Source of the DNA: Terriglobus albidus | GTDB taxonomy: Bacteria > Acidobacteriota > Terriglobia > Terriglobales > Acidobacteriaceae | Length of the DNA stretch: 64,000 nucleotides | Assembly: GCF_025685425.1 (NCBI RefSeq) | Contig: NZ_JAGTAS010000049.1 | Span: 1-64,000 of the forward strand | Reading direction: 5' to 3' | In this document: one piece after another, positions 26,938 through 57,341 of the stretch | Layout of the letters: each line of letters opens with the position of its first letter | Numbering within the stretch: the first letter of the stretch is position 1 | The notes under the pieces: model-generated | Told to the model about the DNA's origin: nothing | Databases searched by the model: none | Seen by the model: only the letters and a program-made list of their open reading frames with translations | Position numbers and translations under genes: made by a program

Positions 26938-28176
26938 ATGAAGCGCGGTCGTGTCATCTACCTCTTAATTCTGCTGGACATCGCATCGTCGGTGATGCGA
27001 GCTCAGGTCTCATCCCTGACGCGTGACGAGCCGCTTGATGAGCTTGTCCGTCAGCGGCAGTGGAGCGAACTACGGGCAGCAGCCTCCCGGGATAGCAATG
27101 CAGGCTTCTACCGCGCCGTAGCGGCTGCTGTCTATAACGTGCCCGAAGCGGAGTCATTGTTCAAGCAGGTGATTCAGGATGCGCCCGCCTCAGAACATGC
27201 CTACGAAGCCTACAACTGGTTGGCGAACCTCTATCAGAAGTCTGGCCGATACCATAGCCTGGCCGTCATCCGCCAGGCACAGTGGAGATCATTTCCTGAC
27301 AGAAAAGAGATTGCCTCGCAAAAGCAGGAAGACGCACCTTTCATGGGCCTTCCTGACCAGGAAAATGGCCCGCGTGCCACATCCAGATTGCACCATGACG
27401 GCCATTCACTTCCTGCTCCCGCGACGATCAATGGGAAGCATGTCGAATTTTTCTTCGACAATGGAGCCGATCTCTCGTGCATCTCGGAGGATGAGGCAAG
27501 GCGGCTTGGACTGGCTTTTTCAAAGTCTGCGGGCGTTCTGGGGACCATGACACAGAGCGTCGGATTCCGCATGGCGACAGCAAAGCAGGTCACCATCGGC
27601 AAGATGCGTTTCCGGAACGTCTCCTTTGCTGTGTTTCCAGATGATCAGCCACCGATGTCTCTTGTGCCTCTGGGCCATCGCGGGATCATCGGCTTGCCTC
27701 TCATGGTCGCGATTGGGACCTTCCGCTGGGATGCGAACGGCACACTCGTTATCGGGGAGGAACCTCAGGAATTTGTACCGGAGCGTTCGAACCTCATCTT
27801 CGATGCAGGGGACCATATCGTATTGCAGGCGAAGTTTCAGGGAGAGCCTATATGGATGTCATTAGACTCCGGCGCGACCACAACTGATGTCTATGCGCCG
27901 TTTGCACGCCGGTTCTCTGACTATCTGCAACAACATGGCAACGCTGGACAGAATCAGATTATTGGACTTGGTGGTGCAGAGAGCCACGATTCGATTGATG
28001 TCCCGGAGCTCTCATTGCAGATAGACGGGAAGGACCTTACGCTCCGCCCCGCCCATATCATGACGAAACACCAGGACCATCGCGACTGGATCTTTGCCAA
28101 CGTTGGAAAAGATCTGTACATGCAAACATCGGCCTTTGTACTGGATCTCCACGCAATGAGATTGATGTTGAAGTAG
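26938..28176 (+). CDS. Secreted protein with two retropepsin-like domains
   Basis: A 412-residue exported protein. The signal peptide (residues 1-23) ends near VMRAQ, and a helical TPR-like segment (about 30-110) includes ESLFKQVIQDAPASEHAYEA. Two clan AA aspartic protease-like domains follow. The first has VEFFFDNGADLSCIS, in which the usual D-T/S-G-A is D-N-G-A, and GIIGLPLM; the second has MSLDSGATTTDVYAPFARR. The two halves may pair as in pepsins. The TTG at 26914 extends the frame, but ATG 26938 starts the signal peptide. A role in cell-envelope proteolysis is possible; activity is uncertain because of the DNG motif. Confidence 0.82.
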   Translation: MKRGRVIYLLILLDIASSVMRAQVSSLTRDEPLDELVRQRQWSELRAAASRDSNAGFYRAVAAAVYNVPEAESLFKQVIQDAPASEHAYEAYNWLANLYQKSGRYHSLAVIRQAQWRSFPDRKEIASQKQEDAPFMGLPDQENGPRATSRLHHDGHSLPAPATINGKHVEFFFDNGADLSCISEDEARRLGLAFSKSAGVLGTMTQSVGFRMATAKQVTIGKMRFRNVSFAVFPDDQPPMSLVPLGHRGIIGLPLMVAIGTFRWDANGTLVIGEEPQEFVPERSNLIFDAGDHIVLQAKFQGEPIWMSLDSGATTTDVYAPFARRFSDYLQQHGNAGQNQIIGLGGAESHDSIDVPELSLQIDGKDLTLRPAHIMTKHQDHRDWIFANVGKDLYMQTSAFVLDLHAMRLMLK

Positions 28177-28202
28177 ACCTGGAGCTCCGCCCAGGACCAA
28201 TA

Positions 28203-29768
28203 TCAAGATGCCATTGTTTTGACGGGGAGTTCAGAGACGGCGTCCTGCTCCTGATAGTCAGCATGTGCAGTCTCGTCGTGGTTGCGTTGGATGCCGGCGC
28301 GGTCAAGAAGCATGGATGTCAGCCACACGACGACAATGTTCGCCATCAGCGCCCAGATGCCGGCATAGAGCCTGACGCTTGTGCCGCCAATGTTGATCGC
28401 AAAGACGGAAGAGTGCAGGCGCAGCGCCGCAGCCATGGATGTTCCGGTGACCATGCCGACCGCCCAGCCGGCGATGAGCGCCTGGTGATGGAAGATCCTC
28501 CTCCAGAGGCCGAAGGTGATAGCGGGGAAGGTTTGCAGAATCCAAATGCCGCCAAGCAGTTGCAGGTTGATGACGAAGTCGTGCGATGAGGTAAAGACAA
28601 AGAGCAGGGCTCCAAATTTAACACCGAAAGAGACGTTCTTGGCGACGCGCGACTCCTGCTGTGCGGTGGCTTGGGGCCGGAACCAGGCGCGGTAGATGCT
28701 GCGGGTGAAGAGGTTGGCGGCTCCGATCGACATGATCGCCGCCGGCACCATCGCCGCCAGGGCAATGGCTGCGAAGGCAAGGCCGGTGAACCATGGCGAG
28801 AAGAAACGGGTCATCAGCTCCGGCACGACTCCGCTGGAGGTAGCGGGGTGAATTCCGGCAGCGACAGCAACCACACCGAAGAGAGCGATGAGCCCCAACA
28901 GGAAGGTATATGCGGGCAGCAGCACCGCGTTGCGGCGAATAACCTGGCCACTGCTTGAGGCCAGCATGGTGGTAACGGTGTGCGGATACATGAACGCTGC
29001 CAGGGCGGAACCCAGCGCAAGCGATGCATAGGCGGTGTAGTCCTTAGGAAGCAGAATGAGCGAGGCCGTACTATGGCGGCTCCAGACAGCATCTGCCGCG
29101 GAGAAGATATGGCTGTATCCACCGGCCTTGGCTGGGATGATGACGATTGCGGCAATGACGACAACGTAGATGAGAATGTCTTTGACGATGGCGATAATGG
29201 CAGGGGCTCGCAGTCCGCTGGAGTAGGTGTAGAGCGCGAGGACAAGAAAGGCGATCACAAGTGGCAGATCCTGCTGCACCCAGGAGTTGCCGGTGAGGCC
29301 AAGCTGTGCCAGCACCGCTCCCATTCCGGCGAGCTGCAGCGCGATGTAGGGCATCGTCGCCGTGATACCTGTGATGGCTACCAGTGTCGCCAGGGTGCGG
29401 CTGCCATAGCGGCCTTGCACGAAGTCAGCCGGTGTGATGTAGCCATGCTTGCGCGCGACGGACCATAGACGCGGCATGGCGAGAAAGACGAACGGATAGA
29501 CGATGATGGTGTAGGGCAGTGCGAAGAACCCCATCGCGCCGGTGCCGAAGACCAGCGCCGGTACTGCAATGATGGTGTAGGCGGTGTAGAAGTCGCCTCC
29601 TACCAGGAACCACGTGATCAGCGTGCCGAACTGGCGGCCTCCGAGGCCCCATTCATCGAGCTGGTCGAGATCGCCACGCTTCCAGCGGGCTCCGAGAAAG
29701 CCAAGCACAGAGACTGCGGCAAGAATCGCGAGAAAGACAAGAAAGGCTGAGGAGTGCAGGAGCTGCAT
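28203..29768 (-). CDS. Sodium:solute symporter (SSS family)
   Basis: A 521-residue transporter with about 13 predicted helices and the SSS family pattern. The unwound first core helix lies near GTLITWFLVGGDFYTAYTII, with FALPYTIIVYPFVF after it. The conserved GLAFAAIALAAMVPAAIMSI segment with its Ser/Ala positions lies around residues 330-350, near the Na2 site. It imports a small solute with sodium. It begins one base after the DUF3311 stop, a pairing commonly seen, and is the last gene of the seven-gene operon, so it probably takes up the released sugar or acid. Confidence 0.94.
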   Translation of the reverse strand: MQLLHSSAFLVFLAILAAVSVLGFLGARWKRGDLDQLDEWGLGGRQFGTLITWFLVGGDFYTAYTIIAVPALVFGTGAMGFFALPYTIIVYPFVFLAMPRLWSVARKHGYITPADFVQGRYGSRTLATLVAITGITATMPYIALQLAGMGAVLAQLGLTGNSWVQQDLPLVIAFLVLALYTYSSGLRAPAIIAIVKDILIYVVVIAAIVIIPAKAGGYSHIFSAADAVWSRHSTASLILLPKDYTAYASLALGSALAAFMYPHTVTTMLASSSGQVIRRNAVLLPAYTFLLGLIALFGVVAVAAGIHPATSSGVVPELMTRFFSPWFTGLAFAAIALAAMVPAAIMSIGAANLFTRSIYRAWFRPQATAQQESRVAKNVSFGVKFGALLFVFTSSHDFVINLQLLGGIWILQTFPAITFGLWRRIFHHQALIAGWAVGMVTGTSMAAALRLHSSVFAINIGGTSVRLYAGIWALMANIVVVWLTSMLLDRAGIQRNHDETAHADYQEQDAVSELPVKTMAS

Positions 29769-29963
29769 CTAGCGCGTCCTCCAGTAGACAATGCCGGTCA
29801 GTGCCGCGGTGAGAAAGACCCAGACGAACTGGTACCAGTAGAAGAATGGCACCCCAAAGATCTCTGGTGTGCGCCGCGCGTAAAGAAACGGCAGAAGAAG
29901 ACCGCCATAGGGAAGGATGAGCAGCCACATCCATCGGCTTTTATTATTTTGTGTGAGCTTCAT
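29769..29963 (-). CDS. DUF3311 small membrane protein
   Basis: A 64-residue protein with two hydrophobic segments (about residues 12-27 and 40-60), matching DUF3311: LLILPYGGLLLPFLYAR, FFYWYQFVWVFLTAALTG and the C-terminal YWRTR. In many bacteria this small subunit is encoded directly before an SSS-family symporter, as here, and it is probably part of the transporter. Confidence 0.9.
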   Translation of the reverse strand: MKLTQNNKSRWMWLLILPYGGLLLPFLYARRTPEIFGVPFFYWYQFVWVFLTAALTGIVYWRTR

Positions 29964-30011
29964 GTATGACTCCCAAAATGATGCATGATTTCAGCCGTGA
30001 TCGAGGCGGGA

Positions 30012-32198
30012 CTATTGGAAATGCACTTCGACGGTTTGCGGTGATGCATGTTGCGGGAAACGCAGCCATGCAGTAATGCCGTCTGAGCCGAAGGCGGTGG
30101 CGTCGAGGGTCATGCCGTTCACACGAACCCCGGTGATGGCGGATGCTGCCTTGATGCGGACTATCGCCGTGGAGCCTTCTATGCCGTCGGCAGAGAAGGT
30201 CAGCAACTTTCGCTCATCGTGCTCGTTGCTGATGCGCCCTGCAGATGCGATAACGGTTGGCGCTGCCGCGTTAACGGCTGCAACATCGAGAAGGAAAAGG
30301 TGTGCTTTTCCTTTGGGTTCGTAGGTATGCAACACATCCATGTTGGCACTGAAGAGATCGAGGTAGTATCCCGATGTTCTTCCGGCAGAGGGTGTCGCTG
30401 CTTCCGAGAGTCCCTTCGCAATGATGTATGGTCCACGGCGCAGGATGAGGCGATCGCTCTCTTCTAATCTCATCGACTTTGCTGCGAGTGCGGTCTTGAT
30501 ATTACTGAGGAGATGCTGCGACCCATTAGCCTGCATCGCCAGAGCCGCGGGTGATGCGGCCTCATGGAGCACTATCCCTTCGCCAACACCTACGACGCCA
30601 GTCTGAGTGTTTGCAATACCAAGCTCTTCAAAGAGCTCATCCATCGGGCGGGCATAGTGACGCGGTGCGGTATTCCACCAGTCTGAGACCGACTGATACG
30701 GATCTTTTCCGTCATCGATCACAACGAGAACTCCACCTGCCTTTACCCAGTGGACGAGTGCATGATGGAAGGCGATCGACGGCGGCTTCTGTCCTTCATA
30801 GGTAAGCAGGAGGCAGCGATAGCGGTCTGCAATCTTCGCCTGGTGGAAGCTTTCGATCTGCACCGGCTCTACCGGAATACCATGAGCCAGCAATGGCAGC
30901 GACAGGCCGAAGAAGGAGCTCAAGCGCTCGTCGGAAGCAGAAGGCGCGGTGCGTTGAAACATCAGCGTATCCGAAACCAGAACGCCGATTCCCTGCGAAC
31001 CGGCAGCGAGCCATTGTGCATGGCCTGCGCTCTTCTTCATCTGGCCAAGAGCATGGAAGACGGTCTGAAGCTCGGATTCATAGGCAGCCGCAATCGGAAC
31101 ACGCTTTCCCGGATCGGCTTCCGAAGGATAGATGCCTCGCGGGCCAAAGATGCGTTCGGGCCACGGCACCACCTCATAGTTGCTGACCTCCGGTTGGAAG
31201 AGAGAGGCTGTCAGCGTGCTCTCCCAGTTGAAGCGATAGTCTTCCCAGGTGTGGTTGGGATTGTCTTCGATGGGATCATTCAGATACCAGACCTTGCGAC
31301 CAGAGGCGCGTACGAGGTTCTGCATCGCGCCATACTCCAGGAATGCGGCTTCGAAGGTACGCTCCTGCACCTTGCCTTCGAGAGCATTGGGGGTGCGTGC
31401 CGTTCCGGTCCAGACCTGTGCGATGTATCCATCGGCACCCACATCGATGAGGGATGACTCCGGACTGACGATGCGCCATTGCGCGTAGTTCACCAGTGAA
31501 TGAGTGGCGACATAGCAGGGAATCTTCTTGTGATGCGTCTGGCCATACTGCTTCACCGCGGCGAAGACATCCGCGAGAGCACGGCGATAGAGAAAGTACT
31601 TGAGCTTCGATGCCCGATACTGCGCGTCGGGCGAGCTGTCGGGCGCCTGCCACGGAGTTCCATAGAAGGCCTGCCACTCACGTTTGAAGCTTTCGCTCCA
31701 ACCGGACTTCGCCCAGAACTCGGGCTCCTCCAGGAAAACAGCTTCCACACCGGCATCGAGAGCGCGGAGCACGCCGGCCGCCAGGAACTTTCCATACGAG
31801 GCCGAAGGAGCAATGTAAGGGATGCGTGGATTGCTGCCGTGCAAGACCATCTTTCCATCACGGTCCATCTGCGCTTCATCCCAATGCTGCTTGCCATCGA
31901 AGCGGCCGTCGAGGTAGTCGCTGTACTCTCCCCAGGAGACGCCGGTCATGAGAGCAACGTGATACCCGTGACTGCGCCAGCTTTCAACCCGCTGGGGAAG
32001 GGTGGCATCGATGCCGTAGACGATGGCCGTTCCGGCCTCAATGTTCAGCCGTGGTGACCAAAGGGCATGGGTCTGAAAGTTAATGGCATCTGCATCCTGC
32101 ACCTGGGCCTGACTGCGCCCGGGAGCGGTCATCGCAATGACGACCGCTCCCATGGTGAGGAAGTGCTTCCATCCTGATGGTCTTGTATCGACCGGCAT
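30012..32198 (-). CDS. Glycosidase-like secreted protein (GH-A/trimerization type)
   Basis: A 728-residue exported protein; the signal peptide ends near residue 32 (GRSQAQ). Residues about 45-330 look like a TIM barrel: GVSWGEYSDYL, ALDAGVEAVFLEEPEFWAKS (with an acidic pair that could be catalytic), KKIPCYVATHSLVNY and KVWYLNDPIEDN. Residues about 370-530 resemble the glutamine-amidotransferase-like trimerization domain of GH42 enzymes (ADRYRCLLLTYEGQKPP and HWVKAGGVLVVIDDG). The end is a beta sandwich. I cannot assign a known GH family, so it may be a new glycosidase-like group. It belongs to the seven-gene operon, 24 bp from the beta-helix gene. Confidence 0.7.
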   Translation of the reverse strand: MPVDTRPSGWKHFLTMGAVVIAMTAPGRSQAQVQDADAINFQTHALWSPRLNIEAGTAIVYGIDATLPQRVESWRSHGYHVALMTGVSWGEYSDYLDGRFDGKQHWDEAQMDRDGKMVLHGSNPRIPYIAPSASYGKFLAAGVLRALDAGVEAVFLEEPEFWAKSGWSESFKREWQAFYGTPWQAPDSSPDAQYRASKLKYFLYRRALADVFAAVKQYGQTHHKKIPCYVATHSLVNYAQWRIVSPESSLIDVGADGYIAQVWTGTARTPNALEGKVQERTFEAAFLEYGAMQNLVRASGRKVWYLNDPIEDNPNHTWEDYRFNWESTLTASLFQPEVSNYEVVPWPERIFGPRGIYPSEADPGKRVPIAAAYESELQTVFHALGQMKKSAGHAQWLAAGSQGIGVLVSDTLMFQRTAPSASDERLSSFFGLSLPLLAHGIPVEPVQIESFHQAKIADRYRCLLLTYEGQKPPSIAFHHALVHWVKAGGVLVVIDDGKDPYQSVSDWWNTAPRHYARPMDELFEELGIANTQTGVVGVGEGIVLHEAASPAALAMQANGSQHLLSNIKTALAAKSMRLEESDRLILRRGPYIIAKGLSEAATPSAGRTSGYYLDLFSANMDVLHTYEPKGKAHLFLLDVAAVNAAAPTVIASAGRISNEHDERKLLTFSADGIEGSTAIVRIKAASAITGVRVNGMTLDATAFGSDGITAWLRFPQHASPQTVEVHFQ

Positions 32199-32222
32199 GA
32201 TTGCTCGCCTGCCTCCTGGTGC

Positions 32223-35192
32223 TCAGTTAGGAATCAATACGGTTGCGCCTGTGCCACCGCCGGACTGTTGCCCGACCTTCGCGGCGTTGTTGCCGTAGAG
32301 GTCAGTCCCGTAGATGGTGTAGGCCGAGATCGAAGCGCCTGTCCCGAGAATGATTCCATAGTCCTGCAGGTTGGCGTTGATGGAAGCATTGGCATAGCTA
32401 GAGTTGGCGATCCAGCCATTCATGCCGCCGACAAAGATCGCGCTGCCCACCGACGATCCAACATACACACCGGAGAGCGGCCGTGTCTGCATGGTGTTAT
32501 ACGGCGTCCACAGGTTGGCATTGTTGCCGATCTGGCAGTTGATGAGCGAGACCGTGGTTCCACCCTGCAGGAGGAAGGCCTCGAAGGCTGCTCCGCGGCT
32601 TCCGGAGGTCAGGACCCTCAGGTTTCCGCTGACACCGCTCTCGGCGAAGAAGGCGATGTTACGGGTGTTGACCCAAGGCTCATCGAAGTCGATGTCTGTC
32701 GCCTGCTGCAGGTCGGCTCCGTAGACGTAAGCATGATCGATCGCGAACTTGAACGACGAAAGATTGTGCGGTGTTCCCTGATCGTTGGCGACGGTCTGGT
32801 ATCCCACCCTGCCTTCGATCAGGGTTCCTGAGTCGGTACGGAAGCGTGTCACGCCACCGACGAGACGGATCCACTCGAGGTCAGGAATCTGATCGGGCGG
32901 AAGTGTACAAGCGGTCGAGGTATTGCAGAACGAGGAGGACGACGGCATCCAGATATTTCGCAGGAACTCGCCGTAGACCTGATAGAAGCGGATGTCAGCG
33001 GTTGCCTCATTCGTCGTTGCCGTGAGGGTATACGCGCCCAGCGGAACCGTTGGCTGCGTGTTGTTCACGCCCATACTCGACATGTCGACGTCGAAGAGCT
33101 CAGAGTTGATCGTATCGACGATGGAGACGCCTCCACCCATGCCGTAACGTGCGCCGATGTTGGCGAGCCGGATCTGCGAGGTATTGGTGATCAGGAAAGG
33201 AGGAGCATATGTGACCGGCGTATTCGCCGGTGCTGTCAATGCAGCCGTCTTCGAGTAGAAGACGGTCAGACCGAAGAGGCCGCTGCCGGTTGAACCTGAT
33301 ACGACCTGAAATGCATTCTGTGTGGGAACAGCAACCGAGTCCGTGATCTGGGTAACGTTGCGGCCGTCCCCGAGAACCTGAATGGCCGCGTGGTTGATCA
33401 CGAGCGGATCAGATACGTTATAGATCTTCCGCGTGTACGAGCTGAAGCTGCTGTTGAAGTGCCCGGCAGGAAGATACAACACAGCGCCCTCCGGGAATTG
33501 GGTGGCTGCGATGCCTTCCCAATAGGTGAAGTTCGCCGCATTGATGTTGCCGGAGCTGTCCACCACAGGATGCGTACTGAGCGCGGACGAGGTGAGGTCG
33601 ATCCACTGACGATCGCGGATCTCAGGCAGGTCATAGAGATTGAAGCCTTTGACCACAGCCATCACGCCGGTTCCGACCGGATCGGTCGGCAGGTTCTGAA
33701 GCGACCACGTGTCCTCTGCCGGTGGATTGAAGTAGCCGGCGTTATAGAGCGTGTAGTATCCGCTGGGGTTGGTAATAGTAATGCCGGAGCTGCGCTGCGC
33801 TGTGGGAATATTGAGAAAGTCGATATTCGAGGCAATGATCGTCGGCGTGTGCCATGGCGTATAGAGCGGGCTGGTGGTGCTGACGTACATTCCCCAGTCC
33901 TCGTGAACCGTCGTTCCGTTGGCCGAGCCGAAACGTCCGCCGACGACATTCAGAGAAGTAACACTGGAGTCGACGGAGAGATCGGCGATGGGCAGGTCAT
34001 CAGAACTGGCGCTCGATTTGCGCTGACCGCTGTTCAACAACACCGCATTCACCAGGTTGATGTTCATGCCCCGCTGTACACGGATGGCGCTGAGACCGGT
34101 GTAGGAGGTCCGCAGGTTGGTGAAGGCCAGACCGCCATAGAAATTCGGCGTCACCTTAATGGCTTCCGCACCGGCGTAGTTGATGGTGGTGTCGCTGACG
34201 TAGACCTGTTTCGCGAAGTCCACCAGAATTCCCTGCGCATTGGTGTGCTGAATCAGCAGGGAGCGGAGATAGACATCGTTGGCGAAGGTGGTGGAGTCCG
34301 CGCCGGTGATGTGAAGTCCTACACCGCCTCCGGAGAGATTGCCGCCGATCAGCTCCATGTTCGCGGGAATAATCGCCAGTGTCGTACTGGTATTTCCGGT
34401 ACTGGCGGAGACGGTGAGCGCATGCATCTTGATTGCATCCGTATTGAACGTCCCCAACCGCGCACCGAAGGTTCCGCGTACACCGGAGATGTTGATATTC
34501 AAGAAGTAAGGGCTGGTGCTGTCACCGACGTCGAGGCCGTTGTACGCATTCGTAATGGTGAGATCACGGACGAGCGTCTGATGCGGCAGATTCATGGCCA
34601 CACCGGTGGCTGTATCTCCTTCGCTGCCTGAGCCTGCCGTTCCGGTAAAGGCCAGATTGATCCCAATCAGGCCGCCATAATTAAAGGTGCGGGTCCCGGA
34701 ATAATCAGCATTGCCATTGAAACGGATCGCGGCCGGCGTATCGATGAGTGAAACATCCACGCCGAGCGTCGTCTCGATGGCGCTGCGGTTGTCGTAATCA
34801 TCATCAACAAGCGAGTCATCGTAGGTCAGCGTGGGATAGCTTCCATTCTGGCCGGTGGAGGTAACGGCTCTGACGCCGACCAGGGTGACACCGCTGCCTT
34901 CGAGCTTCAGCGTGTGGGCAAGATAGTAGGTCCCTGGCGCAAGCAGAATGACACCGCCCTTAGACAACGAGGCGGAGGCCATGGTGTTGATCGCCGCCTG
35001 GATGGTGGCGGAAGCGTCAGCGGGAGCCGCAGGCGGAGTGAGCATAACCGAAGAGTTGAAGACGTAGTTCGTGGTTCCGGAGGGTTGATGCTTCAGAAGC
35101 GCTGCCGAGGGTATGGTCTGGCCAACCGCCAGTGGGGCTGCCAGAAGCGTGAGAGCTGCGATACCAGATAGAAAACGCACGTTTTGAGACAT
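32223..35192 (-). CDS. Secreted double beta-helix protein (pectate-lyase-like)
   Basis: A 989-residue exported protein with a signal peptide (MSQNVRFLSGIAALTLLAAP). Two right-handed beta-helix halves are visible. The first starts near residue 55 (SATIQAAINTMASAS, GGVILLAPGTYYLAHTLKLE, VTLVGVRAV); the second starts near residue 545 (FPEGAVLYLPAGHFNSSF, IQVLGDGRNVTQITDS). Both halves begin like the pectate lyase 3/GH28 N-terminal cap. Such proteins are lyases, epimerases, hydrolases or passive carbohydrate-binding scaffolds; catalytic residues cannot be named. Start 35192 follows GGAG. It is the fourth gene in the operon. Confidence 0.85.
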   Translation of the reverse strand: MSQNVRFLSGIAALTLLAAPLAVGQTIPSAALLKHQPSGTTNYVFNSSVMLTPPAAPADASATIQAAINTMASASLSKGGVILLAPGTYYLAHTLKLEGSGVTLVGVRAVTSTGQNGSYPTLTYDDSLVDDDYDNRSAIETTLGVDVSLIDTPAAIRFNGNADYSGTRTFNYGGLIGINLAFTGTAGSGSEGDTATGVAMNLPHQTLVRDLTITNAYNGLDVGDSTSPYFLNINISGVRGTFGARLGTFNTDAIKMHALTVSASTGNTSTTLAIIPANMELIGGNLSGGGVGLHITGADSTTFANDVYLRSLLIQHTNAQGILVDFAKQVYVSDTTINYAGAEAIKVTPNFYGGLAFTNLRTSYTGLSAIRVQRGMNINLVNAVLLNSGQRKSSASSDDLPIADLSVDSSVTSLNVVGGRFGSANGTTVHEDWGMYVSTTSPLYTPWHTPTIIASNIDFLNIPTAQRSSGITITNPSGYYTLYNAGYFNPPAEDTWSLQNLPTDPVGTGVMAVVKGFNLYDLPEIRDRQWIDLTSSALSTHPVVDSSGNINAANFTYWEGIAATQFPEGAVLYLPAGHFNSSFSSYTRKIYNVSDPLVINHAAIQVLGDGRNVTQITDSVAVPTQNAFQVVSGSTGSGLFGLTVFYSKTAALTAPANTPVTYAPPFLITNTSQIRLANIGARYGMGGGVSIVDTINSELFDVDMSSMGVNNTQPTVPLGAYTLTATTNEATADIRFYQVYGEFLRNIWMPSSSSFCNTSTACTLPPDQIPDLEWIRLVGGVTRFRTDSGTLIEGRVGYQTVANDQGTPHNLSSFKFAIDHAYVYGADLQQATDIDFDEPWVNTRNIAFFAESGVSGNLRVLTSGSRGAAFEAFLLQGGTTVSLINCQIGNNANLWTPYNTMQTRPLSGVYVGSSVGSAIFVGGMNGWIANSSYANASINANLQDYGIILGTGASISAYTIYGTDLYGNNAAKVGQQSGGGTGATVLIPN

Positions 35193-35304
35193 GGAGCTCC
35201 TTTCAGGAACACCGATCTGTCGCGAGATGAACGGCAAAGCGGGTGATACAACCAGCCATGGGAAAAGGAAGGAGACCGCCAGGATGGCGATCTCCTTTGA
35301 GGCA

Positions 35305-36915
35305 CTACTGGTTCAACACGTCTTTGAACTGTGTGAGATCAACCTCGAGGATGGCGTTACCGGAGCGCAGGCTCTCCTGCAATGCCTTGATATCGACAGC
35401 CTGCACGGCAACCTTATTCTTCACGGCGAGCGCAGCACCGGCACCGGCAGCCTGACCCAGAATCATGTACTGCGGCTCCATGCGCAGCGTGGAGTATGCG
35501 GCGTGGCTGGTAGACGGACAAACCGTGACCAGCAGATTGGTGAGCTCCGACGCTTTGGGAAGCAGAATGCGATACGGCATCTGGTAGGGGACGTGCTTCA
35601 TCCGTACCTGTTCCGTGCGCTGCGGAACACCTTCGGTAGCGACCTCACCTTTCTCATCCGCGAACATCTGTACCGGATGCACATCCAGGCCATAGCTGCC
35701 CAGTCCGACCGAGTCTGGCTTGGTGAGATTGTCTACAACATCCTGCTGCCGCATCACGTAATCGCCGATCAGGCGGCGAGCCTCCCGCACATAGACCTCA
35801 TACGGCCAGTTATTATGGTCGACAAACTCGTCTTTCGCCAGCCCCCACTCATTCACCGCGTTCTGAATTGCCTTTGGCACGCGAGGATCGTTCGCCATGA
35901 ACCACAGCATGCCCGCGACAAAGTCAAAGTGCTGCTGCCATATGCGTTCACGCTCGGCATAGTTCGCGTCGGGATAGTTCCAGCTTCCGGCGACGAAGTC
36001 GGCGTAGTTCAGGTCGGCCTTGTCGCTGGCGATCGCGAGGGCAGGCCAGAAGCCTTTAACTAGCCGCTCATCGGAATCATGGCTTGTCGCAAGCAGCATG
36101 CGATTCAGCAGTACATCGTAGAGATGCGGGTTGTAATGGGTTGGCTTGGGATAGGGGAGCTGGTTCTTTTTGTCGTGAGAGAGAACGACGCGGAAGTTGT
36201 AGGCCTGTGTCTTGTTATCACCGTCGCCGACGTTGCCTTCGCGGTGAGGCATCACACCTGCGAGCAGCTTACCTCCGGCGTCGTACGCCTTGATGTGTTC
36301 GGAGTGAGCATCACGCACACCAGCGGAGTATTCGCCGTACTGCTTCTGCGACTCGCGGCCGACAATGTAGGAGGCTCCGGCAAAGGCCATGAGGTCGCCC
36401 TCATAGGTGGCATCGATGAAGACCTTGCCGCGAAAGGTCTTGCCATCTTCAGTATTGATGGCAACGATCTGCTTGCCTTCTTTCCTGACGCCGCCGTGTT
36501 CTTTCAGCCTGCAGCCGGCTGCGACAACGATCTTCGCTTCTTTGAGCATGTCGTTGAAGATCTGCTCGGCGATGTGCGGCTCAGTATTCCACATGCTGGC
36601 ATGGGTGAGATGGTGCTGCTGGTAGTAGGCGTCGCCACGTTGCCAGAACTCATACGGAATGCCGCCGATGACGCTGGGGCGACCGACGTCGGTACGGAAG
36701 AGCCCGTTCGTCACCATGCCGCCGAGATGAGGATTGGCCGAGACCAGCGCAACCTTTGACGCTCCGTTGCGTGAGGCGCTGACCGCGGCGATGATGCCGG
36801 AGGCAGAGCCGCCATAGACCACAACGTCGTACACATCCTTCTCCGCAGCCATTAGGGGACGCGGAGTCAACAGCAGAGAGAGAAGCAGCAACAAGAGAAT
36901 TCGAGTGGGTCGCAT
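35305..36915 (-). CDS. FAD-dependent oxidoreductase 2 (FAD_oxidored)
   Basis: A 536-residue exported flavoprotein of the PF12831 group. The signal peptide ends near PRPLMAAE (about residue 24). The dinucleotide-binding motif is [20 protein letters not shown], then [12 protein letters not shown]; the FAD-site motif [19 protein letters not shown] lies about residue 165, and the C-terminal FAD contact [19 protein letters not shown] about residue 490. These enzymes are often co-located with polysaccharide degradation genes but their reaction is mostly unproven. It is paralogous to the upstream oxidoreductase, 41 bp away. ATG 36915 follows AAAGGAAA. Confidence 0.9.
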
Positions 36916-36956
36916 AGTTTCCTTTTGCAGTAATCGAGTGGATCTCATTCGCTGGG

Positions 36957-39152
36957 TTATTCACCGATCCATAGCCAGCGGATTGCTTCGATAGCGACGT
37001 CGCCGTCAGTGCCGGCGTTGCCAACGGTCACGGAGGGCGATTCCCCAGGAGCGATGTGGAAGTCGGCGAGAGGAACGAAGGCGAATGGGGTGTCCTTTAC
37101 CTTCTCGTTGAGGTGGAGCGTACGTGTCCCTTGATTTGTGGTCACCGTAATCGGAACATTCGTCGCTCGGCGGATGCTCTTGGGATAAGCAATCGCGAGG
37201 CGATAGGTTCCAGGCCGGGACAGCCTGGTTTCAAATCGAACTGACTTCTTGCCCTTGTCGTTGTTTAGATCGTGCCAGGCAACGAGATCCCGTTCATCCA
37301 GACCAGCGATGGCAGTCTTATCCCAGAGGCCATGTTCCTGCGCCTGCTCGTAGCTCAAGGTGACATCAGGTGTTCCGTCCGCCGCTGTTCCAATGGTGCG
37401 CTTGGCAATGAGCGAAGAGTTTCCGTCGGAATCCACCACGGTGAGGCTGACCGTACACGGCTTGCTCGAGGTGAAGGTCCACTTCGGCGAGGCATTTGTG
37501 CTCTGCACACTGCCAGATCCGTCGAAGTTCCAAAAGTACTGCGTAAGTGGTGATCGCACTTCCAATGTCTTTACATGGAACTGGACTGCTGCTCCCGGCG
37601 CGGCCGGACCGTCAGCTTCAATGGCGACACGCGGACGGAACATGGGCTCGAGCGGGACCTTCTGCTCACCGAGCCGCCTGCGTAACTCGTCGGTCGAGAT
37701 TGCCTGGACTGCAAGATTCTTCTCGATCGCCATGGATGCCGCCAGCCCCGCTGCCTGGCCAAGCTCCATGAAGACCGGCTCCATGCGGATGGTGCAATAC
37801 GCGATATGCGTTGCAGAGAGATCGACGGGAACGAGAAGATTGTCGGGACTGATCGGCGTAATGGAGCGATAAGGGATGCTGTAGGGATCGGTCCATCCGG
37901 CGATGTTGCCGCCCTCCTGGATAAGGCCTTTGTCCGTAAGGATGGTTTGCACCGGATGCGAGTCGATGACGTAGCTGCCGATGGCGATACCGTCGGGCTT
38001 GATGCGATCGTGCTGCACATCGTTCTGCGTCATCAGGTAGCGGCCGATCATCCGCCTGGCTTCCCGCACATAGAGCTGCGACGAGACGTTACCCGTATCG
38101 GTGAACTCGTCTCTTGGCAGGCCCCATTCTCGCGCTGTCTGCTTGAACTCATCGCTCAGCGATGGATCGTTCTGCAGCATGTACCAGAAGGTCAGCCAGA
38201 GATCGCGGGTGTGCTCGTATACGGCACGGCGCGTTACCCAGTCTGCCTCGACATAGTTGAGATTTCCATCGACATCGTCTGCCTTGTTCGGATCGGACTT
38301 TCCATTCACTGGTCCCCACTCGGGAACGTCAGGGAAGAGCTGCTGGAAGGTGTGAATGTTCTTCTGGTGGATGTGTGCGAGAAAGTCCGCAAACGCCTCC
38401 GGTGTGTAGTGCTGCGGCTTCGGAAACGGAATCCGCAGATCAGGGCGATTCGTAATCGTGGAACGAATGCTGTAGGCCTGCAGACGTTGGTCGCCTTTCC
38501 CGAGTAGCTCGCGCGGACCCCGGTTCATACCCGCCAACGATTCGTTATACTCCGCCGCGCCCTCACGCCCCACACGATAGGGCACATGTGCCGCCGCCAT
38601 CAGATCGCCCTCATACGAGGTATCGATGAAGACCTTGCCGGCAATCTGCTGCGTGCTCTTGTCCGGTGCCTGCACCGTGATCGACTGCAGATGGTTTGGG
38701 CCGAGGGATGCCGAAGTGAGCTGCCGGTCTTTGAGGACCGTGACCTTTGCCTCAGAGAGCATCTCTGCGAAGACCTGTTCGGCGACATGGGGCTCAAAGA
38801 AGATGCCGCCCTTGGTAGCGCGAGCCTGTTCGGAGTCTTTGCCGAAGGCGTGCTCATAGTTAGCCAGCACCCTGGAGAAGAACTCAGCGGGCAAGCCACC
38901 GATGGTCTCCCGCCTTCCGATGTCGGTCTTGGTCAGGCCTCCGGCGACGATACCTCCGATGTGCGCCGATGGCTCGACAAGAACGACATGCCTGCCTTCG
39001 CGTGCGGCTGCCACCGCAGCAGTAATGCCGGCCGGAGTGGCGCCATAGATCACTACATCCGTCTGTGAGGGTTGTGCGATGCTCACCTGCTGCATGGCGA
39101 AGGTCGCGATCGCACAGCTCAACATGCCTATCCGGATACGCTTGAATCTCAT
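36957..39152 (-). CDS. FAD-dependent oxidoreductase 1 with PKD and Xly-like tail
   Basis: A 731-residue exported flavoprotein of the FAD_oxidored (PF12831) type. The signal peptide ends near VSIAQ (about 27). FAD motifs are [57 protein letters not shown] and [19 protein letters not shown] (to about residue 480). A PKD-like domain (about 500-590: [31 protein letters not shown]) and a golvesin/xanthan-lyase-type C-terminal domain (about 600-731: [24 protein letters not shown]) follow, likely binding carbohydrate. It is the second gene of the operon, 56 bp after the receptor. GAGGA precedes ATG 39152. Confidence 0.9.
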
Positions 39153-39208
39153 CAGTCCTCTGCTTGTTTTTGAAGTCAATGGGTTCGTGGTTGCTGTTGG
39201 AGCGAGGA

Positions 39209-42200
39209 TCAGAACTTCACCTTCACGGCGAACTGGAAGGCGCGCGGGCGGTTTGCCTGCGTGGTCACGGTACCGAAGTTGGCCGACGTAGGCGTTCCGT
39301 TCGGAGCTGACATCTGCGGATGGTTGAGGAAGTTGTAGGACTCCGCACGCAACTGCGTCGTAATGGTGTGGTCATGCCAGCTTGCGGCGATGTTCTTTAC
39401 CAGGACGAAGTCAACGTTCTGCAGCATGTCGCTACGCACGTGCGGAATCTGCCGGCCCATATTTCCGAAGGAATAAGAGCCTGCACTGGTGATGACGCTG
39501 GTATCGAACCACTGCTGTGGCGTCGGATTGTCGAGGTGCGGATTAGCTCCCGGAGCAAGCACCGCCGGACGGGCGATGTTCACCGGGAAGCCGGACTGCA
39601 GACGGATGATGGTGTTGGCATCCCAGCCGCCAAGCGCGGTCTCCATCAGGCGATTCATGCCGTGGGCAAAGCGTCTTCCACGACCGAAGGGAAGCTGCCC
39701 GAGGAAGCTGATGATGGCCTGATGCGTAGCATCCTGGTCGGAGAGTGCATACTCTCCGGCGCGGTTGTAGGAGTCCAGCGGAACACCGAGGTTATCCATC
39801 GATTTCGCATAGGTGTAGGCAGCATTCACGCTGAGCGCCTTCGAGAAACGCTTGGTCACCTGCACCGTTCCCGCGTTGTAGTTGGTCTTTCCTGCGGGCT
39901 CGTAGACCTGCACCACTCCACCGTCACCGACATACTGCGGATAGGGCAGCAGCGACTGGCGGAGGGTGATGGTCTTCTGCCCGGGCGCCGACTGGTTGGC
40001 GAGCACGCCATAGAACGGATTGGGTACCGTAGTTGTCGTGAGCTTCGAACCGAGGCTCAGATATTGGTTCGGCAGCTGGTTCAGGTTCTTCGAGGTGGCG
40101 ATGTGCGTCCCCAGGTTTCCCCAGTAGTGCGTGTCGAGCACGAATCCGAAGGGAAGCTGCTTCTGGAAGTCGAGACTGAACATCTGCACGTAGCCGGAGG
40201 TGTAGTGATAGAGCGGGATGCTGATGGTGGAGCCTGCGCCGGTATTTGGATCGCGGTTATTGCTGGGCAGCGTCGCTCCCTGCGGGAAGGGATCAGTCAG
40301 TGAGTTTGTTGGGATCACACTGTCGATCGGCATCAATGTATCGACAGTTGTGCCAATGGCTCCTGCACCGCTGGCCTGCACGGACTTAGGCAGGAAGAAG
40401 ATGCCGTAGCCTCCGCGCAGCACTGCCTGATGCGGCAACTGATAGGCGAAGCCAAAGCGCGGATTGAAGTTGGTCCACTTGGTCTCCTGCTGATCTTTCG
40501 AGTGACCGCTGCCTGCCCATACGGCGACACCGGTGAGGTTTGGCAGATGAGCGGGACCGGCGAGAGGACTGGGAGCTGTGGGATCAAACCATGCAACGCG
40601 GTTGTACTTCTCGCGGTTGCCGCGGCTGAGGTCCCAGCGCAGACCGAAGTTCAGCGTAAGGTGTGACGTCGCGCGAAAGTCATCCTGCACGAAGAGAGCG
40701 GAGTACAGGCCTCCCGTGGAGATGGCCGCGACCTTGCGGATGTAGCTTCCAGCGGCGCCGGTTGTCGAACTCACACCCGACGGAATGCCAAGCAGGAAGC
40801 TGGCCAGATCATTACCCTGCGTCTTACTGGTAGCTGCGGTTGGGTTCTGCTGCGTGAAAGTGTGATCGAACTTCAGGGTGCCGGAGGAGTTCGCGTTCTG
40901 ATACTCGTTGAAGTTGAGGATCCAGTACTCCGCGCCGAACTTCCAGGAGTGGCGTCCGCGTGTATAAGTCAGCAGGCCGGTGGTGACGTAGTTGTTTCTG
41001 GGCTGATGCTGCTGGCCCACGGAGCTCTTCTGCGTGAGCGCACGGTAATCCGTCATCGAGATGATCGGAAGCTGCGGGGCAGCGGTAGAGGCAAAGGTAG
41101 AGGAAAAGCCCAGACCGGCAAGATCAACCGTAGGCAGACCGCCTGCCTGATTCGCCAGGCCGCGGGTGAATGAGGTCTGGATATTGGCGAAAAGATTCTG
41201 CGTGATGACGCGAGAGAGGCCGACGACGATCTGCGCATAGTGATCGTCGGTTACGGTGCCGGCGATGGCAGGCGGCATGGCTCCGGGGACGATGCGCGCA
41301 TCGGTCTGCCGTGAGAAGCGGCCAAAGACCGTTGTCTTCTCTCCGGGATGCAGATCCGTCCGGAGGTCGTACTTGTTGGTATTGGTGACCGAGTTGTCGG
41401 TGTAGATGAAGTTGTTGACGTTGGTGACGGCATTGCCCGCCTGGTTCGGCAGCGGGTACGACTTCAGGATGTTCAGTGCCAACGGATTGATGCGGTTGGA
41501 GGGAATGATGTTCCCCTTGAACGCCGTGCGTCGTCCAGTAGTGGCGTTATAAGTTGCCGGGTCATAGATGGTTACCTGCACCGGAGCACTCGCAGCCGAA
41601 GCCTGGTAGTAGGTCGAGGAGAAGTCGCCGGAGCGCTGTGCCTGTGTTGGCACGCTGGAGAGAGTGCTGACCGGAAGCTGCTGCCGCAGGGCCTCGAAGT
41701 CGCCGAAGATGAACCAGCGGTCGCGAAGGATGGGAAAGCCGACCACGCCGCCGGTCTGACGGCGATGATAGTTGGGCACATTGCCGGTTGCGAAGTAGTT
41801 GCTGGCGTCCATCGAGCTGTCGCGCTCGAAGTCATAGACACTGCCATGGATGTCATTCGTTCCGGATTTGGTAAGCACGTTGACGATGCCGCCTGAGGTG
41901 CGGCCGAACTGTGCGTCATAGCTGGTGGCCTGAACCTTGAACTCCTGCACGGCGTCGACCGGCGGGCTGATGACGGCACGGCTGACGTCGCCGGTGGTGT
42001 TGGGCGCTCCGTCGAGCATGATGGCCTGCGAGCCGCTGCGGCCTCCGCCGACGTTGAAGTCGGAGCGGAAGTAGTTACGGCCGATGTTGCCGCCGCCACC
42101 GTCACTGAAGTTCGATCCGAGCACGGTGCCGGGTGTCAGTGCGATAAGCCCGAGCGAATCGCGCAGGTTGAGCGGAAGCTCCTCGATCTCGCGCTGAGTC

Positions 42201-42730
42201 ACGACCTGGCCGAGCGATGCGTTGGCGGTCTCGACACCAGTCGACATGCTGGTGACGGTGACGATCTCCTTCACCTCGCCCACCTCCAGCGTGATGTCGA
42301 GCTGCAGTACCTGGTCGACCAGAAGGGTGACGTTCTCCTGTTGGAAGGCGCGGAAGCCGGGCATGGTGCACGAGATGCGGTAGGTGGATGGCTGGAGCGA
42401 CGGGAACCGGTAGACACCCTGTTCGTCGGACTTGGAGCTGATCGAAGTTCCCCGAGCCGTATCGGTCGCCACCAGGACGGCGTTGGGAACGATGGCTCCG
42501 GCGGTGTCCTTCACCAGGCCGGTGACCTGGGAGGTGTAGCTCTGCGCCTCGGCTGTCTTCGGCATGAGGATGAAGACCGTCAGCAAGGCGAGCAGGAAGA
42601 TGAGAGAACGACCGGTTGCGGACAGAGACCAGGAGACCGGGAAAACGAATTTTTTTGAAAACTGTGTATGGACGAACAAGTTGCAGGCCCTCCGTTGAGA
42701 CGTCGGCAAGGTTCGATCCCGAGGCTGCAA
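39209..42730 (-). CDS. TonB-dependent receptor, Oar-like with CarboxypepD_reg domain
   Basis: A 1173-residue outer-membrane receptor. A signal segment (LIFLLALLTVFILMPKTAEA, about residues 43-62) precedes a carboxypeptidase-regulatory-like domain (VTGLVKDTAGAIVPNAVLVA), a plug domain (about 165-300; IMLDGAPNTTGDVSRAV, FGRTSGGIVNVLTKSGTNDI) and a beta-barrel ending in AFQFAVKVKF with the terminal Phe used for outer-membrane assembly. This Oar/SusC-like form with no separate SusD partner is typical of acidobacteria and is thought to take up glycans. The start is uncertain: TTG 42730 leaves a long leader, and TTG 42679 is another option. It is the first gene of the operon and divergent from the regulator at 42821. 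Confidence 0.93.
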   Translation of the reverse strand: MQPRDRTLPTSQRRACNLFVHTQFSKKFVFPVSWSLSATGRSLIFLLALLTVFILMPKTAEAQSYTSQVTGLVKDTAGAIVPNAVLVATDTARGTSISSKSDEQGVYRFPSLQPSTYRISCTMPGFRAFQQENVTLLVDQVLQLDITLEVGEVKEIVTVTSMSTGVETANASLGQVVTQREIEELPLNLRDSLGLIALTPGTVLGSNFSDGGGGNIGRNYFRSDFNVGGGRSGSQAIMLDGAPNTTGDVSRAVISPPVDAVQEFKVQATSYDAQFGRTSGGIVNVLTKSGTNDIHGSVYDFERDSSMDASNYFATGNVPNYHRRQTGGVVGFPILRDRWFIFGDFEALRQQLPVSTLSSVPTQAQRSGDFSSTYYQASAASAPVQVTIYDPATYNATTGRRTAFKGNIIPSNRINPLALNILKSYPLPNQAGNAVTNVNNFIYTDNSVTNTNKYDLRTDLHPGEKTTVFGRFSRQTDARIVPGAMPPAIAGTVTDDHYAQIVVGLSRVITQNLFANIQTSFTRGLANQAGGLPTVDLAGLGFSSTFASTAAPQLPIISMTDYRALTQKSSVGQQHQPRNNYVTTGLLTYTRGRHSWKFGAEYWILNFNEYQNANSSGTLKFDHTFTQQNPTAATSKTQGNDLASFLLGIPSGVSSTTGAAGSYIRKVAAISTGGLYSALFVQDDFRATSHLTLNFGLRWDLSRGNREKYNRVAWFDPTAPSPLAGPAHLPNLTGVAVWAGSGHSKDQQETKWTNFNPRFGFAYQLPHQAVLRGGYGIFFLPKSVQASGAGAIGTTVDTLMPIDSVIPTNSLTDPFPQGATLPSNNRDPNTGAGSTISIPLYHYTSGYVQMFSLDFQKQLPFGFVLDTHYWGNLGTHIATSKNLNQLPNQYLSLGSKLTTTTVPNPFYGVLANQSAPGQKTITLRQSLLPYPQYVGDGGVVQVYEPAGKTNYNAGTVQVTKRFSKALSVNAAYTYAKSMDNLGVPLDSYNRAGEYALSDQDATHQAIISFLGQLPFGRGRRFAHGMNRLMETALGGWDANTIIRLQSGFPVNIARPAVLAPGANPHLDNPTPQQWFDTSVITSAGSYSFGNMGRQIPHVRSDMLQNVDFVLVKNIAASWHDHTITTQLRAESYNFLNHPQMSAPNGTPTSANFGTVTTQANRPRAFQFAVKVKF

Positions 42731-42753
42731 ATTGTCGAGTTGCGAGGGGTTAT

Positions 42754-42766
42754 GTTACGATGTAAC
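42754..42766. promoter_or_regulatory. Palindrome between receptor and regulator, site 1
   Basis: GTTACGATGTAAC is a perfect 5-bp-arm palindrome about 30 bp upstream of the receptor reading frame. One further mismatch-tolerant base pair extends it. It is a candidate operator of the divergent regulator. Confidence 0.5.
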
Positions 42767-42780
42767 GTCCTTTTTTCAAT

Positions 42781-42802
42781 AACCTACAAGGATTTGTAGG
42801 TT
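42781..42802. promoter_or_regulatory. Palindrome between receptor and regulator, site 2
   Basis: AACCTACAA and TTGTAGGTT are perfectly complementary 9-bp arms around GGAT, ending 18 bp before the regulator start. Placement suggests autoregulation or a small hairpin in the leader. Confidence 0.6.
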
Positions 42803-42820
42803 TCGCGGAAGGCGCGCGGC

Positions 42821-44137
42821 ATGACGACATCGTCTCTTCTTTCGGGTGCAGCGGAGAGCGCTGAGGGTGCTGTAGAGCTTCGCGGACCTCTGGCCAGCCG
42901 CCTGCTGGAGAAGTCCCCGGCGATGAAGCGCCTGCTGGTCTATCTGTGGGAGCACCGGACAGAAGAGCTGAACGAATACGCCATCGCCACTGAGGCACTG
43001 GACCGCAGATCGGACTTCGATCCACGAACGGACGCGGCGGTCCGGGTGCAGATAGCGCGCCTCCGCCAGAAGCTGAAAGGGTTCTACGACGACGAAGGCG
43101 CCCAGGACCCGTGGCGGCTCTCCATTCCTCTGGGCTCTTACCAGCTGCAGGCGGAACCCGTCTCCAAAGATGGTGTGGCACCTGATCTTCTGGTGCAGGT
43201 GAACCCGCCGCCGCTCGCTGCTCCGGTTGTGCCCGCGATAGTTCCGGAGCCCGCGGTCGCAAAACCGCCAGCGACTCGATACCTCTGGTTCTGTGTTGCG
43301 GCTCTGGGAACGCTCGCGCTTGGATGGCTGCTTGGTTCACGGTGGGAACGCCGAAGTCAGAACCTGGCGGCGGAGTCCTCTTCTGCGGCGGTCTCCCCCT
43401 TCTGGGCAAATCTACTGAAGGGTGGACGGCCAACACAGATCGTCTTTCCGAACCCGGTCTTCTTTACCTGGGTCGACAAGAACGGCGACACGCTGGTGGT
43501 GCGCGACCCGGCGGTGAACTCGTATCACGATCTCGAACGGTCACCCTCGTTGTCTGGGCTGGAAGGACAGCGTGGGAAGCCAATCCTGGCGCAGGACTAC
43601 ACGGTCGCGTCGGACACACGGGCTGTCTTTCGGTTGGCTCAGTATCTGCAGCCGCTGGGGACAAAGATCAGCCCGTCGAGCAGTACTGAGCTCTCACCGG
43701 AGTCGGCTGATAGCGCCAACCTGATCCTGCTGGGTACCGTGGGAACGCTGGCCCCGTATCAGGCGTATCTGGACAAGCTCCACTTCCGGATTCCGGAGCA
43801 TAAGCAGTTCATTGAAGACGCGACGCCCGGTCTGAAGGCGCCGGTGCACTTCGAGACGGTGCGTGAGTCACCGACGAGGATCGTGGCTCCGGGAATCGTT
43901 GCTCTGCTGCCGGGCCACTCCTCCGATAGCTTCGTCCTGGTGCTCGCCGGGTATCACACGAACGCGCTGATCTCGTACCTGACCTCGGTTAACGGCCTCG
44001 CCGACCTGCAGAAGGCTCGGGCTGCGCATGGCAATCCGGAGTTCTTCGATGCGGTGGTGCTCTCTGAGGTGAACGGAACCACACCGCTGCGAAGCTGGGT
44101 TGCAGCCCTCAGGCCGTTGGCTAAAGAGCCTCGATAG
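42821..44137 (+). CDS. Transmembrane winged-helix regulator of the receptor operon
   Basis: A 438-residue protein with an N-terminal cytosolic DNA-binding-like domain (about residues 20-110): MKRLLVYLWEHRTEELNEYA, IATEALDRRSDFDPRTDAAV, RVQIARLRQKLKGFYDDEG and LSIPLGSYQ, a pattern frequent in acidobacterial regulators. A Pro-rich linker (128-150) leads to one transmembrane helix (about 154-173) and a periplasmic domain of about 260 residues rich in beta strands. The topology suggests direct signal transfer from periplasm to DNA, as in CadC/ToxR. It is divergent from the TonB receptor with two palindromes between them, so it very probably controls the receptor operon. The ligand is unknown. Confidence 0.8.
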   Translation: MTTSSLLSGAAESAEGAVELRGPLASRLLEKSPAMKRLLVYLWEHRTEELNEYAIATEALDRRSDFDPRTDAAVRVQIARLRQKLKGFYDDEGAQDPWRLSIPLGSYQLQAEPVSKDGVAPDLLVQVNPPPLAAPVVPAIVPEPAVAKPPATRYLWFCVAALGTLALGWLLGSRWERRSQNLAAESSSAAVSPFWANLLKGGRPTQIVFPNPVFFTWVDKNGDTLVVRDPAVNSYHDLERSPSLSGLEGQRGKPILAQDYTVASDTRAVFRLAQYLQPLGTKISPSSSTELSPESADSANLILLGTVGTLAPYQAYLDKLHFRIPEHKQFIEDATPGLKAPVHFETVRESPTRIVAPGIVALLPGHSSDSFVLVLAGYHTNALISYLTSVNGLADLQKARAAHGNPEFFDAVVLSEVNGTTPLRSWVAALRPLAKEPR

Positions 44138-44243
44138 CGCGCCGTTCCGATGAACGGCGATCGCACTCGATCATTACTCGCTTCTTGAACTTATCTCAGA
44201 TTGCTCGTCAGGTCATTGAGGGATGCACCAAATACCTGCAGAG

Positions 44244-44338
44244 TTATAGAGCGGGCCTTCAGCCCTTTGGCTTTCAATGTGCCTGAGACCTGGGGCGTTG
44301 CCCCAGGCTGGTATAGAACGCGCCTTCAGCGCTCTCCT
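44244..44338. repeat. Triple-hairpin repeat (family B)
   Basis: GCGGGCCTTCAGCCC, CCTGGGGCGTTGCCCCAGG, and GAACGCGCCTTCAGCGC in the same order as at 19872 and 26002. The rest of the 307-bp gap shows no gene. Confidence 0.8.
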
Positions 44339-44444
44339 GCCAAAGCATCCTTGCAGTAGGAATTACCATGCTTTCAGCAGGCCTAGCATCGAATTTATCG
44401 ATACATGCTAGCGGGATATACTTCGCGGCGAGGTGAAAGCTGCG

Positions 44445-57335: not shown

Positions 57336-57341
57336 CTAATC

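Follow-up and report, generated by a model that had tools for sequence, protein, structure and literature searches.

A discrete eight-gene cassette at different places in two sister Terriglobus genomes, with a possible role in receptor-dependent import and breakdown of a glycan or glycoside

In the CUT loci of Xanthomonas, as presented in excerpts of the source, a receptor, degrading enzymes, an inner-membrane transporter and a regulator are encoded in one locus without SusD, a protein that the same excerpts report as specific to Bacteroidetes (PMC1790865). The SusC/SusD loci of Bacteroidota likewise combine outer-membrane import and exported degrading enzymes with local control. Here we analyzed a stretch of 64,000 nt of Terriglobus albidus (contig NZ_JAGTAS010000049.1, hereafter the window; the genome it belongs to is G000), in which eight genes form a cassette that can be compared with both systems. 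Seven minus-strand genes (28203-42730), separated by gaps of 0-112 bp provided that ATG starts are used, are divergent from a plus-strand regulator gene (42821-44137). In the order of transcription, the seven genes encode an Oar-type receptor, FADox2, FADox1, a double beta-helix protein, a glycosidase-like protein, a DUF3311 protein and a symporter, with FADox1 and FADox2 being oxidoreductases that depend on flavin adenine dinucleotide (FAD). As in the CUT loci, a TonB-type receptor, a regulator (by a weak match) and an inner-membrane transporter are found in one locus. Candidates for a carbohydrate-degrading enzyme are the glycosidase-like protein, at the fold level, and the beta-helix protein, half of which matches PF12708. 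The cassette differs from the Xanthomonas loci in that it has no named CAZyme family by sequence, two flavoenzymes, a monocarboxylate-type transporter and a regulator that appears CadC-like by eye.

From the Bacteroidota loci the cassette is distinguished by the lack of SusD and of any named glycoside hydrolase (GH) or lyase family, as well as by a receptor of the Oar type (PF25183), and judged by this gene content it is not a SusC/SusD locus. The initial annotation had listed neither SusD nor a known GH family nor a sugar kinase for these genes, in line with our Pfam scan of the eight proteins and our NCBIfam scan of seven of them (all but the DUF3311 protein), which returned none of the three. 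It had also put the missing SusD in the foreground, which we do not regard as notable, given that such an absence is ordinary outside Bacteroidota according to the excerpts cited (PMC1790865). By analogy, the cassette may work like a CUT-type receptor locus in which an organic-acid permease replaces the sugar permease and the enzymes belong, by sequence, to no named families other than PF12831 and PF12708.

Our analysis confirmed the eight genes as a real, discrete unit that stands at different places in two sister genomes, its genes being conserved together as one block at two places. All eight reading frames of the initial annotation, which had described seven minus-strand genes and a divergent membrane-anchored regulator, were found at the same coordinates, and a sister genome of the same genus (G135) holds all eight in the same order. 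When the window was compared by blastn with 68 kb around the G135 copy, the match covered positions 28249-44140 in two pieces, and the remaining matches were short and mostly dispersed repeats. The homologous block ends at the first and last genes: it runs 3 bases beyond the stop codon of the regulator gene and falls 46 bases short of the end of the symporter gene. The flanks of the cassette in the window match G135 approximately 240 kb away from its own copy, in reverse order along 690-749 kb. The left flank stops at position 28176 and the right flank restarts at 44412, with counterparts at 727482 and 727468 of the G135 contig C1. There the flanks are separated by no more than 13 unrelated bases, versus 16,235 in the window (28177-44411), and thus form an empty site. 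The eight genes are therefore an insertion in the window or a deletion in G135, and were moved or kept as a block. In addition, the right-hand flank of the G135 copy (10.6 kb) gave only short matches in G000, the longest being 0.9 kb at 75%, and no syntenic match was found for it there.

Since the identity of the cassette to its G135 counterpart (86%) is similar to that of the main flank matches (78-89%), an old presence followed by relocation cannot be told apart on sequence grounds from a loss at the one place combined with a gain elsewhere. Horizontal gain as judged by base composition was rejected, because the GC content of the cassette (approximately 0.58-0.62) resembles that of the remaining window (0.53-0.61). 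No transposase was found among the eight cassette genes. At the left junction there is directly an aspartyl-protease-like gene (26914-28176), whose counterpart in G135, 81% identical, adjoins that of the esterase gene in the right flank (44433-45572). A dispersed repeat of ~95 bp, palindromic and REP-like (repetitive extragenic palindromic) by eye, is present at 44240-44336, 25997-26091, 19868-19955 and 14862-14991 as well as at several places around the G135 copy, and one of its copies lies within the inserted stretch, between the regulator gene and the right junction.

The comparison between G000 and G135 also showed strong purifying selection across the eight genes, with ratios of nonsynonymous to synonymous substitution (dN/dS) of 0.040-0.089, protein identities of 87.5-95.6% and an overall DNA identity of the block of 85.9%. 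This selection and the coincidence of the block borders with the outermost genes argue against a chance arrangement. Over 1585 overlapping 100-bp windows the mean identity was 86% (standard deviation 5%), and the best of them (42670-42769), identical at 100%, covers 39 bp of the intergenic sequence between the divergent genes and reaches 61 bp into the receptor frame. The spacers between the receptor and FADox2 genes and between the glycosidase-like and DUF3311 genes are 64 and 60% identical, respectively, and the other three spacers (24-112 bp) 82-92%. As conservation is best at the divergent promoter and poor in two internal spacers, the pattern would fit a single main promoter, without proving it. 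The proposal of one regulated unit, made in the initial annotation, agrees with this best conserved stretch and with the presence of the block at two places and the empty site in G135. The true start of the receptor is probably further in than its TTG first codon. A perfect inverted repeat in the divergent intergenic region (42781-42802; 9-bp arms, 4-bp spacer) was considered as a possible operator. It is broken in G135 and for this reason unlikely to be essential, and as a family-wide operator it was rejected, with exact copies, sought with arms shortened to 8 bp, being found in 0 of 184 loci. Inverted repeats with arms of at least 7 were detected neither before the regulator genes of 10 loci nor in G135, and the numbers obtained in scans for terminators and promoters were close to those for shuffled sequence.

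Concerning function, the most likely reading, to which we give about even chances, is a regulated cassette that imports a glycan fragment or a glycoside and breaks it down to yield a monocarboxylate. The membrane regulator would sense an extracytoplasmic ligand and activate the divergent operon, and the Oar-type receptor would carry an oligosaccharide or glycoside through the outer membrane. The two exported flavoenzymes may then oxidize the substrate, and its cleavage, periplasmic or on the cell surface, may be the task of the double beta-helix protein together with the GH42/GH164-like glycosidase, steps that are suggested by their folds. At least one product would be a monocarboxylate (lactate, pyruvate, another 2-hydroxy or 2-oxo acid, or a sugar acid) entering via the DUF3311-MctP pair, whose family is established and whose substrate we deduce.

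The winged helix of the regulator is indicated by a weak Trans_reg_C match (18.9 bits, below the Pfam cut-off of 26.2), and the layout of the protein is CadC-like, with an N-terminal DNA-binding domain, one transmembrane segment recognized by eye and an extracytoplasmic C-terminal part. The receptor (39209-42730, minus strand) is an Oar-type outer-membrane beta-barrel matching PF25183 (E 8e-198) and CarboxypepD_reg in Pfam. FADox2 (36957-39179, minus strand; ATG start at 39152) and FADox1 (35305-36948, minus strand) match PF12831 over its full length with 333.6 and 334.3 bits (cut-off 27; E 1.8e-99 and 2.9e-99). Signal peptides of the cassette proteins, including these two, were read by eye, and no twin-arginine signal was seen among them in this way. 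FADox2 additionally carries PKD and Golvesin_C domains. Golvesin_C had been described as Xly-like and had suggested xanthan degradation; it indicates no substrate, and xanthan, which remains a guess, was dropped as a candidate. Matches of the PF12831 proteins to PDB sequences were confined to the first part with the FAD motif (best 60 of 62). The oxidation of a polysaccharide that the initial annotation had read from the paired oxidoreductases is still a hypothesis. In the literature excerpts, two papers each mention an FAD-dependent oxidoreductase gene once, beside a SusC/D pair in one and near a GH3 gene in the other. One paper names PF12831. Listings and abstract beginnings on PF12831 or FAD-dependent oxidoreductases in polysaccharide utilization, on FAD-dependent oxidoreductases in Acidobacteria and on SusD in Acidobacteria contained nothing on the gene combination of the cassette.

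Relatives of FADox1 (E <= 1e-50) are present in 77 of 299 genomes of the class, G000 included. We compared 20 FADox loci from 19 genomes, a non-random sample picked from the best and tandem hits, with a control of 22 loci, 14 of which surround the glycosidase-like gene in the same class and 8 the MctP gene. A regulator homologue was found in nine FADox loci, a receptor homologue in nine and both in eight, compared with both in 2 of the 22 control loci (one-sided Fisher p 0.022, for a small sample with stretches of unequal length). Two or more PF12831 genes in tandem occur in six of the 20 loci. G000 itself has four PF12831 genes that match the whole profile, two of them within the cassette, and elsewhere in this genome (L127) another PF12831 gene lies between regulator and receptor homologues. 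The neighbourhood search proposed in the initial annotation had a mixed outcome: the trio of receptor, oxidoreductase and regulator recurs and the full set exists in one other searched genome, but the glycosidase-like and symporter genes are also found elsewhere without the rest. A broader claim, that a so far undescribed pathway of oxidative uptake, built around the receptor, the CadC-like regulator and the exported PF12831 flavoenzymes, is widespread in the class, appears quite improbable to us. Its flavoenzymes would oxidize sugar units of a glycan, acidic or mannose-bearing, and thereby open it to cleavage by a new glycosidase family and an orphan double beta-helix enzyme, and sugar-derived acids would be imported in place of sugars.

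The surroundings of the PF12831 relatives also bear on whether the substrate is a glycan at all. It is conceivable, if rather unlikely, that the core acts on a secondary metabolite from plants or microbes or on a phenolic glycoside, with the glycosidase stripping the sugar and the symporter importing the organic-acid part. In several of the loci where the core recurs, no obvious glycan enzyme adjoins it, and the neighbours of the PF12831 relatives are diverse, as such a small-molecule system would have it. Polymers are favoured by the PF12708-type beta-helix protein of the cassette and by the polysaccharide-lyase, GH2 and GH28 neighbours of the relatives. Among the 79 neighbouring proteins scanned (25 of 113 families listed), we found two Hepar_II_III_C proteins, GH2, GH28, RhaT, aldose epimerase and five GDSL esterases.

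Two of the PF12831 loci were noted separately. In L151 (2630-11780) a regulator, a PF12831 enzyme, a receptor and then a Hepar_II_III_C/alginate-lyase protein are encoded in a row. For the substrate of the receptor-oxidoreductase core, this locus offers the most promising clue and the best comparison, because the substrate of the lyase would suggest that of the receptor. In L144 (6227-12837) a tandem PF12831 pair is followed by a frame of 161 residues and an 839-residue peroxidase-family protein, a neighbour that could indicate hydrogen peroxide as a by-product.

For the exported glycosidase-like protein (30012-32198, minus strand), NCBIfam had no match at E <= 0.1, and the only Pfam match, to DUF4350, is far below the cut-off. 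A profile of 33 relatives searched against PDB sequences had no credible match either (best E 0.21, unrelated), and membership in GH164 or GH42 was therefore rejected at the sequence level. The AlphaFold model built from 33 sequences has a mean confidence (pLDDT) of 86.9, and over its whole length the top Foldseek ranks were a beta-1,2-glucosyltransferase, GH42 enzymes and the GH164 beta-mannosidase Bs164. A three-domain architecture with a trimerization-type middle domain is present in the model, in which barrel, trimerization-like domain and beta-sandwich follow each other in the same order as in Bs164 and GH42 beta-galactosidases, as the latter are presented in excerpts (PMC7105311). The protein differs from them in that the identity is 8-11% and no profile match to the solved sequences was obtained; with TM ~0.4-0.56 and a root-mean-square deviation of ~7-15 A over the whole length, the agreement is closer in the order of the domains than in the fine geometry. 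Invariant acids lie on the model after strand 4 (E157, E158, E160) and after strand 7 (D308, E311, D312), as counted by eye, and are candidates for catalytic residues. Strands 4 and 7 are those that clan GH-A uses for its glutamates, according to the same excerpts (PMC7105311).

Relatives of the glycosidase-like protein were identified in 15 of the 299 class genomes, G000 included, and in 24 loci of a named collection, mostly from Bacteroidota, with one each from a member of Planctomycetaceae, Hydrogenedentota, the alphaproteobacterium Novosphingobium and another bacterium. A GH92 gene, searched with phmmer from one Pfam-confirmed member, was found at 11 of 38 sites (the 24 named loci, many loci being shorter than 20 kb, plus G135 and 13 class genomes), and at one further site a fragment lies at the edge. 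For rough comparison, G000 carries seven GH92 genes in 6.1 Mb. In Novosphingobium guangzhouense (L028, 1560-22153) GH125, GH92, GH84-type, ROK and GH3 genes, a GntP permease and a receptor surround the relative, a set that presumably resembles an N-glycan utilization locus. GH76 was found in another scanned locus, and a beta-helix gene of the PF12708/GH28 type lies near the relative in five Mucilaginibacter loci and one Chitinophagaceae locus. Given the fold and the GH92 and other glycan genes near relatives, the family is tied to glycans, often mannose-bearing ones, in agreement with the carbohydrate link drawn in the initial annotation. These neighbours (GH92, GH125, GH76, GH84-type, ROK) would equally suit a conventional glycan locus, which would free neutral sugars from a mannose-containing glycan, with accessory oxidoreductases and a symporter that imports a sugar or is irrelevant. 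We regard such a locus as unlikely, and the Pfam scan of the cassette, which revealed no sugar kinase and no GH92 or similar family, speaks against it.

The exported double beta-helix protein (32223-35237, minus strand; ATG start at 35192) is a near-orphan. Among 299 genomes of the class, and likewise among 19 of the genus, two have it at full length, in both cases G000 and G135, and in four other class genomes short matches of 57-107 residues were found. The first half matches PF12708, a profile of pectate-lyase/rhamnogalacturonase-like beta-helices, with 31.9 bits, over the cut-off of 27. The same part of the profile is also matched, if weakly, by the beginning of the second half (13.6 bits). 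The description as a double beta-helix, taken from the initial annotation, is hence partly substantiated: the first half stands, and for the second there is a weak match at its start. In Pfam scans no family appeared at E <= 1 for the full-length protein or at E <= 10 for the second half as a whole. The protein is under purifying selection (dN/dS 0.053 between G000 and G135), and its AlphaFold model, with two sequences as input, is unusable (pLDDT 31.8). A resemblance to GH55-like twin beta-helices was considered and abandoned, as no sequence support and no PDB match at E <= 10 were obtained.

The symporter (28203-29768, minus strand) is an MctP-type monocarboxylate:sodium symporter, scoring over the NCBIfam equivalog cut-off (NF046076; 705.5 vs 625 bits), and also matches SSF in Pfam. 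A small membrane protein, DUF3311 (29769-29963, minus strand; PF11755, E 1.1e-13), is its likely partner. In rhizobia, according to excerpts of the source, mctP serves pyruvate, lactate and alanine uptake, forms an operon with one other gene and is under two-component control for pyruvate use; DUF3311 is named twice in these excerpts (PMC9100948). We infer that this other gene is the DUF3311 gene, which would make the pairing common to both systems, along with the symporter family; in contrast to the rhizobial operon, the symporter gene of the cassette ends a receptor-enzyme operon. With the cut-off passed and the DUF3311 partner present, the inner-membrane sugar uptake proposed in the initial annotation is unsupported, and the reading as a sugar symporter was dropped after the NCBIfam match. 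The same two features weigh against the conventional glycan locus set out above (PMC9100948, excerpts), in favour of which it can be said that the cassette symporter is a divergent MctP member.

MctP relatives at E <= 1e-60 were detected in 11 of 80 genomes of the family, G000 included, which has a second copy. Seven of eight relatives studied are 64-81% identical among themselves and have no DUF3311 gene in the stretches covered, and the eighth (L166), itself divergent, has one; three relatives, canonical ones included, also pass the MctP cut-off. In L164 a 977-residue FAD/Fe-S oxidase resembling YdiJ below the cut-off adjoins the relative, followed by a 2-hydroxyacid dehydrogenase. Such a dehydrogenase also adjoins the second MctP of G000 (L163), and in L166 an Ldh_2 gene lies ~3.7 kb away. 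Owing to the equivalog match, the DUF3311 partner and these hydroxyacid genes near relatives, the cargo of the symporter is likely an organic acid. The possibility that the DUF3311-MctP pair is a separate housekeeping unit, placed behind the operon by chance, is in our view very unlikely. MctP does occur without the other seven genes in the eight relatives' loci, in some of them near 2-hydroxyacid dehydrogenases, and the spacer before DUF3311 is the poorly conserved one noted above (60%). Against this, the pair lies 48 bp behind the glycosidase-like gene and within the shared block, which ends at the symporter gene, and the genome has its second MctP gene elsewhere. MctP relatives with one in-frame TGA were observed in L157, L159 and L161 (genomes G281, G087 and G345).

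Several results weigh against our preferred reading of the cassette as a system for glycan or glycoside import and breakdown to a monocarboxylate. The complete set was found in only two genomes of those searched, and as a consequence its function cannot be read from many contexts. The trio is incomplete in 12 of the 20 FADox loci, some of which are ended by contig ends, and the comparison carries the selection of these loci and the unequal lengths of the control stretches. The families neighbouring PF12831 are thinly spread, with at most 5 of the 79 proteins sharing any of the 25 listed. Neither GH92 nor other mannan enzymes are encoded in the cassette, the window has no GH92 frame, and in the 24 named glycosidase-like loci, from other phyla, a regulator or receptor homologue (E <= 1e-5) was found in none. 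As for the symporter, its identity to the eight relatives is 51-57%, so that its substrate may differ, and of the two large MctP neighbours scanned, the one in L169 is a phosphoenolpyruvate carboxylase and not a dehydrogenase. Outside the cassette, a second dispersed repeat of ~110 bp was noted at 57230-57453, 59177-59290, 62005-62120 and 23198-23312 of the window, with many copies in G135.

The block in the window and the empty site in G135 constitute a natural experiment that isolates the gene set of one probable uptake-and-breakdown function. We found no activity for three of its enzyme types, namely the exported PF12831 flavoenzymes, the glycosidase-like family and the near-orphan beta-helix protein, and the second of these combines a GH42/GH164 fold with a sequence that falls into no named Pfam, NCBIfam or PDB family. 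An identified substrate would point to the activities of all three, and the monocarboxylate symporter paired with them allows a testable prediction of the end product.

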